Source of the DNA: Gammaproteobacteria bacterium
GTDB lineage: Bacteria > Pseudomonadota > Gammaproteobacteria > Steroidobacterales > Woeseiaceae
Direction of reading: 5' to 3'
Length of the DNA stretch: 43,791 nucleotides
NCBI GenBank assembly: GCA_029881055.1
Contig: JAOUNH010000003.1
Span: forward strand, 1 to 43,791
In this document: one piece after another, positions 3,961 through 8,393 of the stretch
How the letters are laid out: every line of letters begins with the position of its first letter
How positions within the stretch are numbered: the first letter of the stretch is position 1
Made by a program: the position numbers and the translations under genes
The notes under the pieces: generated by a model
Seen by the model: the letters and a program-made list of their open reading frames with translations, nothing else
What the model was told of the DNA's origin: nothing
Databases searched by the model: none

Positions 3961-4959
3961 GTGAAAGAGCGATCGGCTAAAAGTATCCTGGCGACACGCA
4001 AGTGGACCAAACTGCTTGGCTGGGCTGTGGGCGGCGTATTGCTCGTGTTCATCGTAATCGGCATCTTCATATCCCGCGAGCCGGATATTTTCTGGGTGAG
4101 CCGATCGGCCGACTCCGACGCCGTTATTGTCGGCGTATCCACCACCGATACCCTGATTCGCGTCGCGGAAACGCTGCTCGACAAACGCGGCGGATACCTG
4201 ACAAACGACAAGATACCGCCCAGCGTTTTTTTGGACAATATCCCGAGCTGGGAGCTGGGCGTACTGACCCAGGTGCGCGATCTCGGCCGCGTCATGCGCG
4301 ATGACTACACGCGCAGCCAGTCGCAATCGAAGGAAGATGAAGACGTTGCTGACGGCGCGCCGCAATTTTTCTTCGACAACGACTCCTGGATATTTCCCGC
4401 CACTGAATCCGAGTATCGAAATGGCATCGAGTCATTCAGCAACTATCGGCAGCGCTTGATCGATGGCGACCCGGACACGCAGTTTTATGCGCGCGCCGAT
4501 AATCTTCGCGAGTGGCTGTCGCAGGTAGAAAAACGTCTCGGCAGCCTGACGCGCAGACTCGGCAACAGCGTCGTTTCGAACCGGATCAACGACGACCTCG
4601 CTGGTGACTCGTCCGCTGAAGCGGCCGGTGCACAGCCGGACACATTCAACGTGCGTACGAGCTATTTCCAGGTCGACAACATTTTCTTCGAGGCTCGTGG
4701 AACTGCCTGGGCGCTCGTGCATTTTTTTCGTGCGGCCGAATTTGACTTCGCGAAGGTACTGGGCGACAAGAATGCCGAAGCCAGCGTTCGGCAAATTATC
4801 CGCGAACTGGAAGCCAGCCTGGAACCCTTGCGCTCCCCGTTGATCCTTAACGGCGGCGGTTACGGCCTGTTCGCCAACCACTCACTGGTCATGGCGAACT
4901 ATCTCGCACGCGCGAACGCCGCTGTCATTAATCTCCGGGAGCTGCTCGATCAGGGCTGA
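3961..4959 (+). CDS. DUF2333 family protein (inner-membrane anchored)
   Basis: 332 aa, GTG start, single N-terminal TM segment (LLGWAVGGVLLVFIVIGIFI); WELGVLTQVRDLGRVMRDDYTRSQSQSKED resembles the DUF2333 family. Confidence 0.75.
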   Translation: MKERSAKSILATRKWTKLLGWAVGGVLLVFIVIGIFISREPDIFWVSRSADSDAVIVGVSTTDTLIRVAETLLDKRGGYLTNDKIPPSVFLDNIPSWELGVLTQVRDLGRVMRDDYTRSQSQSKEDEDVADGAPQFFFDNDSWIFPATESEYRNGIESFSNYRQRLIDGDPDTQFYARADNLREWLSQVEKRLGSLTRRLGNSVVSNRINDDLAGDSSAEAAGAQPDTFNVRTSYFQVDNIFFEARGTAWALVHFFRAAEFDFAKVLGDKNAEASVRQIIRELEASLEPLRSPLILNGGGYGLFANHSLVMANYLARANAAVINLRELLDQG

Positions 4960-5729
4960 TCGACGGGACGCTTGTCCGAAATTAGGAGTCCGGCCAGAAT
5001 GGCGACCGCCGCCATGCTCCAGACAATTACGGCACCCGTCGGCAGGTCGAGTCGGAACGACAACAGGATGCCGACCAGGTAAGACACCGCACCAACGCTG
5101 TACCCCGCCACAAGTCGATTGCCACGCCGAAGTCCGGTGGTTGCGAGGGCCGGAATGATGAGGCTTGCGAAAACCAGGTAAATCCCGACGATCTGAACCG
5201 ACGCTGTGACAACGACGGCGAACGCGAGATAAAACGTCAGGCCGCTGAAACGCGATCGCAGCAGAAACCAGGCGGTCAGAACCAGGGCATAGAGGATCGC
5301 AACCGGCCAGATGGAAGACCAGGTTGTCCAGAGAATCTGGCCGACCAGCAATTCTTTCAGATGCTCGCTGCCGTGCGGATTGCCGGCGAGTAACAGGATG
5401 CCGCCGGTCGCTGCGAGTATGAAAAGGACGCCGATAATTGGTTCCTGAATCTGCGGCCAGCGTTTCTCGGTCCAGTGCAGGCCAATCGCTGCAAGCAGCG
5501 CAGCGCTGACGGCGGCAAGCTCAACTTCCAAGCCGTTTGGATCCCAATCCATCGCGTGTGCGGCGATAACGCCCAGGCCTGCCACCTGGGCAATGGCGAG
5601 GTCGATGAAAATGATGCCGCGCCTCAAAACTTCCTGTCCGAGCGGTACGTGGGTGCTCAGCACGACGAGCCCCGCGAGAAAGGCCGGGCCGACGATCGTC
5701 CAGTCGATACTCCAGTTAATTGCATCCAT
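4950..5729 (-). CDS. znuB: ABC-3 family metal (Zn/Mn) transporter permease, ZnuB-like
   Basis: 259 aa polytopic protein; VPLGQEVLRRGIIFIDLAIAQVAGLG and LVFASLIIPALAT motifs typical of metal ABC-3 permeases; abuts the SBP gene. Confidence 0.88.
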   Translation of the reverse strand: MDAINWSIDWTIVGPAFLAGLVVLSTHVPLGQEVLRRGIIFIDLAIAQVAGLGVIAAHAMDWDPNGLEVELAAVSAALLAAIGLHWTEKRWPQIQEPIIGVLFILAATGGILLLAGNPHGSEHLKELLVGQILWTTWSSIWPVAILYALVLTAWFLLRSRFSGLTFYLAFAVVVTASVQIVGIYLVFASLIIPALATTGLRRGNRLVAGYSVGAVSYLVGILLSFRLDLPTGAVIVWSMAAVAILAGLLISDKRPVDQP

Positions 5730-6634
5730 CAGCCAATGGCTCCCAGCAATCGTTCAATGATGTCATCGTAAAGCCCGAAAAGATCCGTCGCCTGGTCGGT
5801 GCCGCCCACTGTCAACGGCAATACCACGGCGGGGATACCCGTGCGCTCCGAAAGCCACTGCGATGGCCTCGAGTCCTGGTAAGGAGACCGGATGATAAAG
5901 TCCGCACCGTGATCCGCAAACTCTGTGGTCAGCTTGCTGAGATGCGTAGCCGTCGGCGGAAGCCCGGGTACGGCTTCCAGGTTCCCGGCCTCCACTATTC
6001 CCAGCCAACTTTCGAGATAAACCCAGGACTTGTGGTGCGTGATCGCGCGCTTGCCGCGAAGTGGCGCGGCCTTGTCTTCCCACACCCGAATCGCATCCTC
6101 CCAGCGTTTCGAAAAATCAGCGTACCGGGACTCGTAGGTCTCTGCCTGCGCAGCGTCCAGCTCACGCATCGTTTTCTTAAGCGCTGCGGCGACGGCTGCC
6201 ACATTGTGCGGATTGGTCTGTATGTGCGGGTTGCCCTGCGGGTGAATGTCGCCTTGCGACCGGTCGACGTTCGCGGTCGCGCCGAGTCGCAGTACGTAGC
6301 TGCTGGCTTCGAAGTATCCCGGGGCTCCGGGCCGGACTTTTGGATTATTGGCTTTCTGCAGCAAAGCCGGCAACCAGCCGATTTCCAGCTGTGCACCGCT
6401 GCAAATCACGAGGTCGGCATTTCGCACTTTGGCGATCAAGCTCGGGCGTGCCTGGATGTAGTGCGGATCCTGCAACGCTGTCGTGGCGCTGTAAGCGGTG
6501 ACGTGTTCGCCGCCAATTTCCGTCGCCAACGCAGCCCACTCGGGCTCGCAGGCGAATACATTAAGGTCCGCATGAACGCTGAAGGGCAGCAGAGCCAATA
6601 CGCTGGCGCAAAAAAGATGTCTCATGATCGCCAC
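5729..6634 (-). CDS. znuA: zinc/metal ABC transporter substrate-binding protein, ZnuA-like
   Basis: 301 aa with signal peptide; FACEPEWAALATEIGG, DPHYIQARPS, NPHIQTNPHN, THHKSWVY and TDQATDLFGLYDDII match the cluster A-I metal SBP layout. Confidence 0.9.
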   Translation of the reverse strand: MAIMRHLFCASVLALLPFSVHADLNVFACEPEWAALATEIGGEHVTAYSATTALQDPHYIQARPSLIAKVRNADLVICSGAQLEIGWLPALLQKANNPKVRPGAPGYFEASSYVLRLGATANVDRSQGDIHPQGNPHIQTNPHNVAAVAAALKKTMRELDAAQAETYESRYADFSKRWEDAIRVWEDKAAPLRGKRAITHHKSWVYLESWLGIVEAGNLEAVPGLPPTATHLSKLTTEFADHGADFIIRSPYQDSRPSQWLSERTGIPAVVLPLTVGGTDQATDLFGLYDDIIERLLGAIG

Positions 6635-7966
6635 CTAGAACGCGTGCGCGCCGTGCGCGCCTATTGCGTGAATGTATTGCAGACCCCACTGATTGTCGCC
6701 CAGCAAGCCAGCGTCATCCCGAGTGTATTGCAGTCGCAATCGGCTGAATTCGCTGTTCGCCCAATCCGCCATGATGCTGTAGCGAGTGGGATCGTTGTCC
6801 GGGGCCGCCAGCAGGCTGCCGTCGAAAACCGGTCCGGGATTGTCCGTGGACAGTGCATCGATCCGACCGCCTACGCGCCATCGCGGGAGCGGTTGATAGA
6901 CGGCCTGGGCATACCAGCCGTATTGATCCACGTCGTACCGCTCCGGCGCGAAGCCGAAGCCCTCGTACTGACCATCTTCGCTGCGCCGCATGATCTCTGC
7001 CTGCACAACAAGGTTACGATCGCGCCAGTTGCCATCGGGCGCCCATTTCCAGACGAACTGGGCCGTTAACAGCCGCGAATCGCCGGTAAACAGCCAGGGA
7101 TTGTCTTCGTCGCCGGAGGGGCGCTCCGTCGCGGTCGCGTCCAGTATCGAGACTCCCGCGAGCCAGCTGCTGCTCGTGCCCACATCGCCGCCGAGATTGG
7201 CAAACAGGCTGTAGCTGCCGACGCCGCTGTTGCCCCTGCCCGAGGCAGGATAGTTCGTGCCGCTCAGTGCCTCTCCACCCAGCTCAAGGTAGAGGTCAGT
7301 TGGCGCCAGCCAGCGTAGCTGCAAGCCGTCGTCAACAAGCTGACCCGCAAGAAAGGCCTGGTAGGGCAAGGGTTGGTCGGCGAAGTCCCAGGTATGCGCA
7401 TGCTTGCCGTTCAAATAGCCGATTTTGGAGAAAAAACGGCCGAATCTCGCACCGAATCCCGCCGGTAATGCCGTGGCTTCGACCCAGGCCTCCTCCAGCT
7501 CGACCGCGGCCTCGCCATCTTCGACAGCAATAGCCGCTGTCAGCCACGCCGTGAACTTGTCGTCGACGTTCGCGTTCATGATGATTTCTGTCTCACCGAG
7601 ACTCAGGCCTTCGCTGATGGGTCCGGCCTCGCCACCGTACGGAAAGCCCTGCACCGCATAGCCATCCGGATCGCGCGCATAGTTCCATACATTGCCCGTG
7701 AAGATCACTCCAATCGCAGGGTTGAAAGCCGTATTGCTGCCAGCCGAGGCAGCCGGAGCCGGCTGTGCCGCATAGTTCGCCTGCATGGCGTTTTGCTCGG
7801 CTATCGCGAGACGTCGCTCGAGATCCGCGATGCGGGCCTCATAATCGCTGCGTAACTCCAGGAGCTCCGAACGAAGTGTTTGGATGTCGGCATCTTCGGC
7901 GAACAGATCACCCGAGAAACCGATGCACAGCGCCAGAATGGCGCCCTTGAAAAAGTCGACACGCAT
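6635..7966 (-). CDS. porin-like outer-membrane beta-barrel protein with N-terminal coiled coil
   Basis: 443 aa; signal peptide, heptad-like region LRSELLELRSDYEARIADLERRLAIAEQ, alternating aromatic beta-strands, C-terminal Phe; starts at a clear SD (TTAGGAGGCGACGCAATG). Confidence 0.78.
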   Translation of the reverse strand: MRVDFFKGAILALCIGFSGDLFAEDADIQTLRSELLELRSDYEARIADLERRLAIAEQNAMQANYAAQPAPAASAGSNTAFNPAIGVIFTGNVWNYARDPDGYAVQGFPYGGEAGPISEGLSLGETEIIMNANVDDKFTAWLTAAIAVEDGEAAVELEEAWVEATALPAGFGARFGRFFSKIGYLNGKHAHTWDFADQPLPYQAFLAGQLVDDGLQLRWLAPTDLYLELGGEALSGTNYPASGRGNSGVGSYSLFANLGGDVGTSSSWLAGVSILDATATERPSGDEDNPWLFTGDSRLLTAQFVWKWAPDGNWRDRNLVVQAEIMRRSEDGQYEGFGFAPERYDVDQYGWYAQAVYQPLPRWRVGGRIDALSTDNPGPVFDGSLLAAPDNDPTRYSIMADWANSEFSRLRLQYTRDDAGLLGDNQWGLQYIHAIGAHGAHAF

Positions 7967-7986
7967 TGCGTCGCCTCCTAACTCAA

Positions 7987-8023
7987 CAAAAAAACAGTGC
8001 GCTGGTAACCCGGTTGCCAGCGC
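7987..8023 (-). terminator. intrinsic terminator/attenuator-like hairpin between the small Cys/His ORF and the porin-like gene
   Basis: Minus strand: GCGCTGGCAACCGGGTTACCAGCGC (7-bp perfect outer stem 7999-8005/8017-8023, extendable inward) followed by ACTGTTTTTTT (U7 at 7994-7988), about 20 nt before the porin-like ATG. Confidence 0.8.
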
Positions 8024-8036
8024 GTCTCCGGTCTAT

Positions 8037-8315
8037 CTAGCTGAGTTGAGGCGGACCACGGGAATTAAAGGACCAAAACGTGTCGCAGGGGGCAATTGTC
8101 TCCGAGTACTCGCATGCGAACTCCGTCGCGGGTGTGAGCTGAAACTCAAACGGGCTGGTCGAAACGGCTACCGGCGCGTTCGCGTGATTCGAACACGAGA
8201 CGCAATCGATGGCGTCGCCCGAGGCGTGTGTCGTCGCGTGCAGGCCGAATGCCACGTGACTGAGCACGAACACGAGCAGCAGGGCTTGGACACATTGGCG
8301 GGAGGCGAAAGACAT
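8037..8315 (-). CDS. small secreted Cys/His-containing protein of unknown function, putative metal-binding
   Basis: 92 aa; N-terminal hydrophobic signal (ALLLVFVLSHVAFGLHA) followed by HATTHASGDAIDCVSCSNHANAP and two further Cys. Confidence 0.6.
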   Translation of the reverse strand: MSFASRQCVQALLLVFVLSHVAFGLHATTHASGDAIDCVSCSNHANAPVAVSTSPFEFQLTPATEFACEYSETIAPCDTFWSFNSRGPPQLS

Positions 8316-8393
8316 AGGCGCGCAGTATTGATGAAAGTCCCGATTTTGACAATGCTAGCCCGTGTTGGTTCGTCGGACGGCGCAACATAAATG

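Follow-up and report, generated by a model that had tools for sequence, protein, structure and literature searches.

An arrest-motif ORF and a predicted Shine-Dalgarno-sequestering leader as a putative zinc-responsive switch upstream of a proteobacterial porin-znuAB operon

The window, i.e., the whole stretch of DNA analyzed here, comprises 43,791 nucleotides of a contig from a bacterium of the Woeseiaceae (Gammaproteobacteria). On its minus strand, a 92-amino-acid ORF is followed by the genes for an outer-membrane porin, with its ATG at 7966, a ZnuA-like protein (PF01297) and an ABC-3 permease (PF00950), and the operon is preceded by a YgjP-like gene (Table 1). Structure prediction gave, with moderate confidence (mean pLDDT 68.5), a porin β-barrel resembling OprP/OprO and OmpC-type porins. 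For the ZnuA-like protein, the nearest solved structures by sequence were zinc-binding ZnuA proteins. In the alignment to the best structure match, its HHKSW lay opposite FHDAYGY, and by this alignment the third metal ligand appears to be a His, which, given the known ligand sets, would fit zinc over manganese. No gene for an ABC ATPase (ZnuC) was present after the permease within 3961-5729; the neighboring gene (DUF2333) runs convergently, with an overlap of approximately 10 nt. An Rfam scan of the window returned a single match, a tRNA elsewhere, and nothing at the leader.

Table 1. Positions of the leader elements and operon genes in the window
Feature	Position	Strand	Basis
Promoter of the upstream ORF: TTGTCA 8352-8347, 17 nt, AATACT 8329-8324	8324-8352	-	Consensus match
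Upstream ORF of 92 aa, a putative arrest peptide for zinc sensing	8037-8315	-	ORF listing and family alignment
Putative metal site: His26 8240-8238, His30 8228-8226, Cys38 8204-8202, Cys41 8195-8193	8193-8240	-	Alignment
Arg-Gly-Pro-Pro codons, putative arrest motif	8049-8060	-	Motif in family and CruR toeprint (PMC12992588)
Outer stem, 5' strand; anti-Shine-Dalgarno 8052-8048 (Pro-Pro-Gln codons)	8031-8052	-	Minimum-energy fold
Inner hairpin GCGCTGGCAACCGGGTTACCAGCGC, "terminator" stem-loop	7999-8023	-	Fold, shuffles, 16-leader alignment
U7 tract, in the rod-like fold paired for the most part with 8038-8032	7988-7994	-	Sequence and fold
Outer stem, 3' strand, including the porin Shine-Dalgarno AGGAGG (7979-7974)	7973-7995	-	Fold
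Small hairpin around the porin start codon, GACGC/GUGUC, 6 bp in alignment	7958-7972	-	16-leader alignment
Outer-membrane porin, 443 aa, N-terminal coiled coil	6635-7966	-	ORF listing and structure prediction
ZnuA-like zinc-binding protein	5729-6634	-	PF01297, E=1.4e-39
ZnuB-like ABC-3 permease	4950-5729	-	PF00950, E=1.2e-20

For the 92-aa ORF, there is no dedicated Pfam or NCBIfam family. It begins with a hydrophobic N terminus, carries H26, H30, C38 and C41, and reaches R86-G-P-P89 three residues before its end. Porin orthologues were taken from related genomes and from the named genome contigs, and the ORFs preceding them were inspected. An R[AGD]PP ORF lay ahead of 72 of the 79 orthologous porins in the named set, in both gamma- and betaproteobacteria, and znuA and ABC-3 permease genes came after nearly all of the ORF-bearing porins. 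Cultivated bacteria that carry the ORF include Sulfurivirga caldicuralii and Uliginosibacterium. Among 427 control genes at the same loci, 2 were preceded by an RxPP ORF and 0 by one with a correctly spaced Cys. The family pattern is His-x3-His-x7-Cys-x2-Cys, then R[A/G/D]PP with a few more residues up to the stop codon; the hydrophobic N terminus of the family was judged by eye from the alignment. In 22 divergent aligned members, H26, C38, R86, P88 and P89 were invariant, while H30 and C41 were kept in at least 90%. At least two His residues occurred within the 24 residues before the Cys in 82 of 83 distinct members, and the arrest-type motif read RAPP in 52 of them, RGPP in 28 and RDPP in 3, at 1 to 9 residues (mostly 3 to 4) from the C-terminal end. 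The distance to the Arg, counted from the first Cys of CxxC or from the lone Cys (mostly with three His), was 48 aa in 59 of these members, 49 in 19, 50 in 4, and 47 in 1, although the sequence of the linker was divergent. A nascent-chain ruler would predict just such a linker, fixed in length but free in sequence; with the Pro codons at the peptidyl-transferase center, the metal site would be placed just outside the exit tunnel. In one variant (L103, L104, L105, L120, and L126), which has three or four His, a lone Cys stands in place of CxxC at the same distance to RxPP. The ORF is missing in the relatives L061, L063, L064, and L066 and in the genomes G009, G023, G037, and G104, which constitute natural deletion controls; in L061, L063, and L064 the porin gene is directly downstream of the YgjP-like gene.

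Experiments on CruR and ApdA/ApdP have established R[AG]PP as a ribosome-arrest motif (PMC12992588, PMC10951233). RAPP and RGPP arrest ribosomes across many contexts, with RGPP being the strongest, and toeprinting of CruR placed the third and fourth residues of the motif, both Pro, in the P and A sites, respectively (PMC12992588). By analogy, we infer that the ribosome may arrest at RGPP of the 92-aa ORF, with CCG (8054-8052) as the predicted P-site codon and CCT (8051-8049) as the predicted A-site codon. ApdA and ApdP (PMC10951233, PMC12992588) are small exported proteins encoded upstream of a regulated gene and have R[AG]PP near the C terminus, and the window family likewise combines R[AG]PP near the C terminus with a downstream gene on the same strand. 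In SecM, also a small exported protein, the motif near the C terminus is RAGP. However, ApdA, ApdP, and SecM monitor protein export, whereas the genes downstream in the window serve zinc uptake. SecM acts by exposing a masked Shine-Dalgarno sequence (SD).

A further resemblance is to CruR (bp2923) of Bordetella pertussis, a DUF2946 protein in which RAPP is needed for downstream expression and CxxC for copper control (PMC9426467). In CruR, spacing also matters, with C90 and R139 lying 49 residues apart (PMC9426467), compared to 47 to 50 in the window family, and its C-terminal RAPP is also three residues from the end. Like the window ORF, CruR is the first gene of a metal-uptake operon, has CxxC, and is followed by an outer-membrane transporter (PMC9426467); its export signal may correspond to the hydrophobic N terminus of the window family, in which CxxC and a C-terminal RAPP-like motif with conserved spacing were both found. 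On the other hand, CruR responds to copper, precedes a TonB-dependent receptor and uses Rho-dependent termination in a 162-bp intergenic region (PMC9426467), whereas the window has a zinc operon, a short structured leader, predicted SD sequestration, and conserved His residues before the Cys. The DUF2946 Pfam model had no match in the window protein and matched 5 of the 22 divergent members weakly (best E=1.7e-4), and the ORF heads porin, ZnuA, and ABC-3 permease genes rather than a copper-homeostasis operon. An assignment of the window protein as CruR was therefore rejected, by the DUF2946 model and the copper context, though it would work like one.

The initial annotation had described, on the minus strand, a hairpin followed by ACTG and a run of seven U residues ending shortly before the porin SD and start codon, with the 92-aa ORF just upstream. 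The sequence and an ORF check agreed on all of these elements, in the order GCGCTGGCAACCGGGTTACCAGCGC (8023-7999), ACTG (7998-7995), T7 (7994-7988), and AGGAGG (7979-7974). The hairpin was also beyond what chance would give: the 91-nt stretch 8040-7950 folded at -30.6 kcal/mol (z = -2.07 versus dinucleotide shuffles), and the inner stem outscored 100 of 100 dinucleotide shuffles of its spacer. Of 51 leaders of 78 to 102 nt, 42 had a stem of 5 or more bp, with a mean score of 15.3 versus 5.9 in shuffles, although leaders without the inner hairpin also occur. In an alignment of 16 leaders, both strands had changed at 6 of the 7 pairs of the inner stem, and pairing fell from 80.8% to 21-49% (both helices together) when the partner strand was shifted. 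In 20 of the 42 (16% expected), the base of the inner stem lay +28 to +34 from the first Pro codon; in the window, it is at +31 from the predicted P-site codon. Since the hairpin base in G002 is still at +32, with a stop codon four codons farther on, the hairpin seems to be positioned by the arrest motif and not by the stop codon.

The annotation had read this hairpin as an intrinsic terminator that could act by partial termination or by regulated, metal- or translation-responsive readthrough. Some transcripts would then stop before the porin, constitutively or under the control of the ribosome on the small ORF, and partial termination may give a peptide-rich, transporter-poor stoichiometry. 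The strong stem and the U7 tract are indeed present in the window, and a U-rich tail followed the stem in 9 of the 51 leaders of the same layout, against an expectation of 1.3, and several of these 9 belong to the window's own group. It follows that the hairpin is conserved but the terminator is not, because the stem is found in 42 of 51 leaders and the U-rich tail in just 9. In addition, ACTG leaves a gap of 4 nt between stem and U tract, for which reason a simple terminator scan allowing 0 to 2 nt omitted the hairpin, the U's of the window are mostly paired within the rod-like fold, and the two predicted folds contained no antiterminator. Regulated attenuation is probably the wrong mechanism, because the hairpin base lies approximately 15 nt past the predicted edge of an arrested ribosome, leaving no evident means of control, and because transcription passes the U tract before it reaches the SD. 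We therefore regard intrinsic-terminator attenuation as unlikely; the U7 tract is either part of the rod or, alternatively, the tail of a weak intrinsic terminator, and a lineage-specific contribution of termination is possible.

A different role for the structure was suggested by the fold of the whole leader. In the window, 8052-8048 (within CCG CCT CAA) was predicted to pair with 7973-7977, with the bases of the SD paired at a probability of 0.90-0.93; the outer stem runs on through the stop codon, and the inner hairpin forms the tip of the rod. Leaders were folded from just upstream of the arrest codons, and the arrested state was represented by covering the 5' part up to +15. The two predicted states of the window leader differ at the SD, and the hairpin is present in both. 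Opening the SD of the window required 6.4 kcal/mol in the full leader compared to 4.2 with an arrested ribosome, and for 61 leaders of at most 102 nt the medians were 7.3 and 3.4 kcal/mol, respectively, compared to 3.9 for other genes. A comparable truncation changed the median by 0.0 in other genes and by 4.3 in ORF-bearing leaders (p = 2e-17), while the mean SD opening energy fell from 7.3 to 5.5 when ORF ends were swapped among leaders (p = 2e-7) and from 7.3 to 5.2 upon synonymous recoding of the ORF ends (p = 3e-9), all of these p values being optimistic because related leaders were treated as independent. The window leader was an average case, beating 24 of 25 synonymous recodings and only 20 of 25 swaps, and many single leaders had no clear margin over their own controls. 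Leaders longer than 102 nt were heterogeneous. Porins without the ORF had SD opening energies of 1.9-5.7, mostly near the baseline, with one exception of 10.8. RNAalifold on a MAFFT alignment found the small hairpin around the porin start codon as the sole structure (94.8% of cells paired in 16 leaders, double changes in 2 pairs, in partly coding sequence); it misses the other stems because their register shifts, and swaps and synonymous recoding were for this reason used as controls. According to these models, the conserved feature is that the arrest codons and their neighbors are predicted to sequester the SD, i.e., control would be mainly translational.

Synonymous sensitivity also bears on whether the 92-aa protein is itself the working product, as a periplasmic zinc chaperone or sensor, with the RNA fold being incidental. 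Its hydrophobic N terminus and conserved His/Cys ligands, and the position of the ORF in a zinc-uptake operon at nearly all loci, would be consistent with such a function. Conservation is, however, limited to the metal motif, RxPP, and their spacing, with no conservation of the linker, and RxPP near the extreme C terminus together with an SD pairing sensitive to synonymous changes points to a leader acting in cis. We consider a chaperone very improbable.

The promoter scan of the window found no promoter-like site on the minus strand between the hairpin and the porin; the promoter lies just upstream of the small ORF. Its -10 box stops 8 nt short of the ATG of the 92-aa ORF, the relatives G002, G047, and G049 have an equivalent layout, and of 19 leaders with a good promoter match, 16 have a -10 box whose end is 5-9 nt from the start codon. 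Given this short distance, shared by several relatives, the mRNA of the ORF is probably leaderless.

We also looked for signs of control by Zur. The palindrome TAACATTAtcTAATGTCA (8409-8392) was rejected as a Zur box; it is AT-rich, far upstream of the promoter, and not widely present. Scored with the enterobacterial consensus, all ORF-bearing leaders resembled shuffled sequence, with no enrichment of Zur boxes. The transport genes are like those of Zur-controlled znu operons, from which the window-type leaders differ in this lack of enrichment. The orthologous porin-znuA-permease operon of Vibrio campbellii, by contrast, lacks the ORF and has a 14/16 match to the same consensus. Zur-box-like palindromes lie around 2860-2960 of this locus (L140). 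The absence of enrichment with the ORF, set against the match in the ORF-less operon, suggests that, at the porin-znuAB operon, Zur can be replaced by the ORF. In the incomplete genome of the window, one Fur-family protein was found, and its sequence does not mark it as Zur.

From the computed family, its motifs, spacing and operon, and the two predicted folds with their specificity, we infer a sequence of events for arrest, zinc binding, polarity, and regulation. The small ORF would be transcribed first, from the promoter at its own start codon. A zinc-free nascent chain would arrest the ribosome on its Arg-Gly-Pro-Pro codons, Pro3 occupying the P site and Pro4 the A site, so that the ribosome covers the anti-SD codons, leaves the porin SD free and allows translation of porin, znuA, and znuB. 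Zinc would bind the His2Cys2 site, which at a distance of approximately 50 residues from the P site would just have emerged from the exit tunnel, and relieve the arrest; the ribosome would then finish and depart, and the leader would fold into the rod, in which the outer stem hides the SD and the inner part is the observed hairpin. The genes of the operon and the His/Cys set point to zinc, rather than another metal, as the presumed ligand. We find it probable that the locus has such a zinc-responsive translational leader, in which an arrest peptide relieved by zinc is combined with SD sequestration to control porin-znuAB. A wider reading, which we favor only slightly, is that this is a gamma- and betaproteobacterial nascent-chain zinc sensor, serving at this operon in place of a recognizable Zur box, in which the arrest codons are the anti-SD and the arrested ribosome both reads zinc and unmasks the SD. 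In line with the initial proposal, the leader very probably controls porin-znuAB in response to metal and translation, with the ORF as part of the switch and with intrinsic termination, the mechanism originally envisaged, auxiliary at most. Three features go beyond that proposal: RGPP at the C terminus, two His accompanying CxxC, and base pairing between the porin SD and the RGPP codons.

The output part of this model has its closest counterpart in CutF of Rhodobacter capsulatus, a small exported protein carrying metal and proline-rich C-terminal motifs, where an intergenic stem-loop shields the SD of the next gene (PMC9973294); an intergenic structure sequestering the next SD was likewise predicted for the window leader and its relatives. 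CutF has CxxxC, and copper promotes an arrest-like delay that turns on a copper oxidase (PMC9973294). CxxxC was absent from the window family, which has CxxC or a lone Cys instead, and the anti-SD of CutF is a CTTC inside the stem-loop, whereas that of the window family is formed by the arrest codons or by codons immediately preceding the stop codon. The proposed polarity, with metal relieving arrest, would be opposite to that of CutF, as expected for an uptake operon. By analogy, the sensor part would thus resemble CruR and the output part CutF, both of which are copper systems.

The resemblance to CruR raises another mechanism, in which the arrested ribosome shields the transcript or polymerase from Rho and zinc frees the ribosome, so that Rho terminates transcription before the porin. 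Rho was shown to act in CruR, with which the sensor layout is shared (PMC9426467), the ORF transcript shows a mild excess of C over G, and some leaders have no inner hairpin. However, the intergenic region of CruR is 162 bp, compared to mostly 42-73 nt, and structured, in the relatives of the window, and Rho leaves the cognate codon-level pairing with the SD unexplained. Rho as the mechanism is doubtful, if somewhat less so than an intrinsic terminator, and it could act in addition to SD sequestration.

Roy et al. noted that no riboswitch had been described for copper or zinc and that CruR was the first characterized transition-metal uORF (PMC9426467). Our literature search found no zinc uORF, zinc arrest peptide, or zinc chaperone of this type, while the supplementary gene lists of PMC12992588 may include the class. 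A widespread zinc counterpart, if true, would suggest that metal sensing by the nascent chain is a general solution, and would give a function to small unannotated ORFs in zinc operons. The proposed double role of the Pro-Pro codons as anti-SD offers a testable route from arrest to output, and the locus is a warning that a hairpin followed by U's ahead of a gene is not necessarily a terminator. The genome of the window also contains, at L139 1872-1495, another ORF of DUF2946 appearance, which is 125 aa long and His-rich, ends in SRAPPA and is likely a CruR-type relative.
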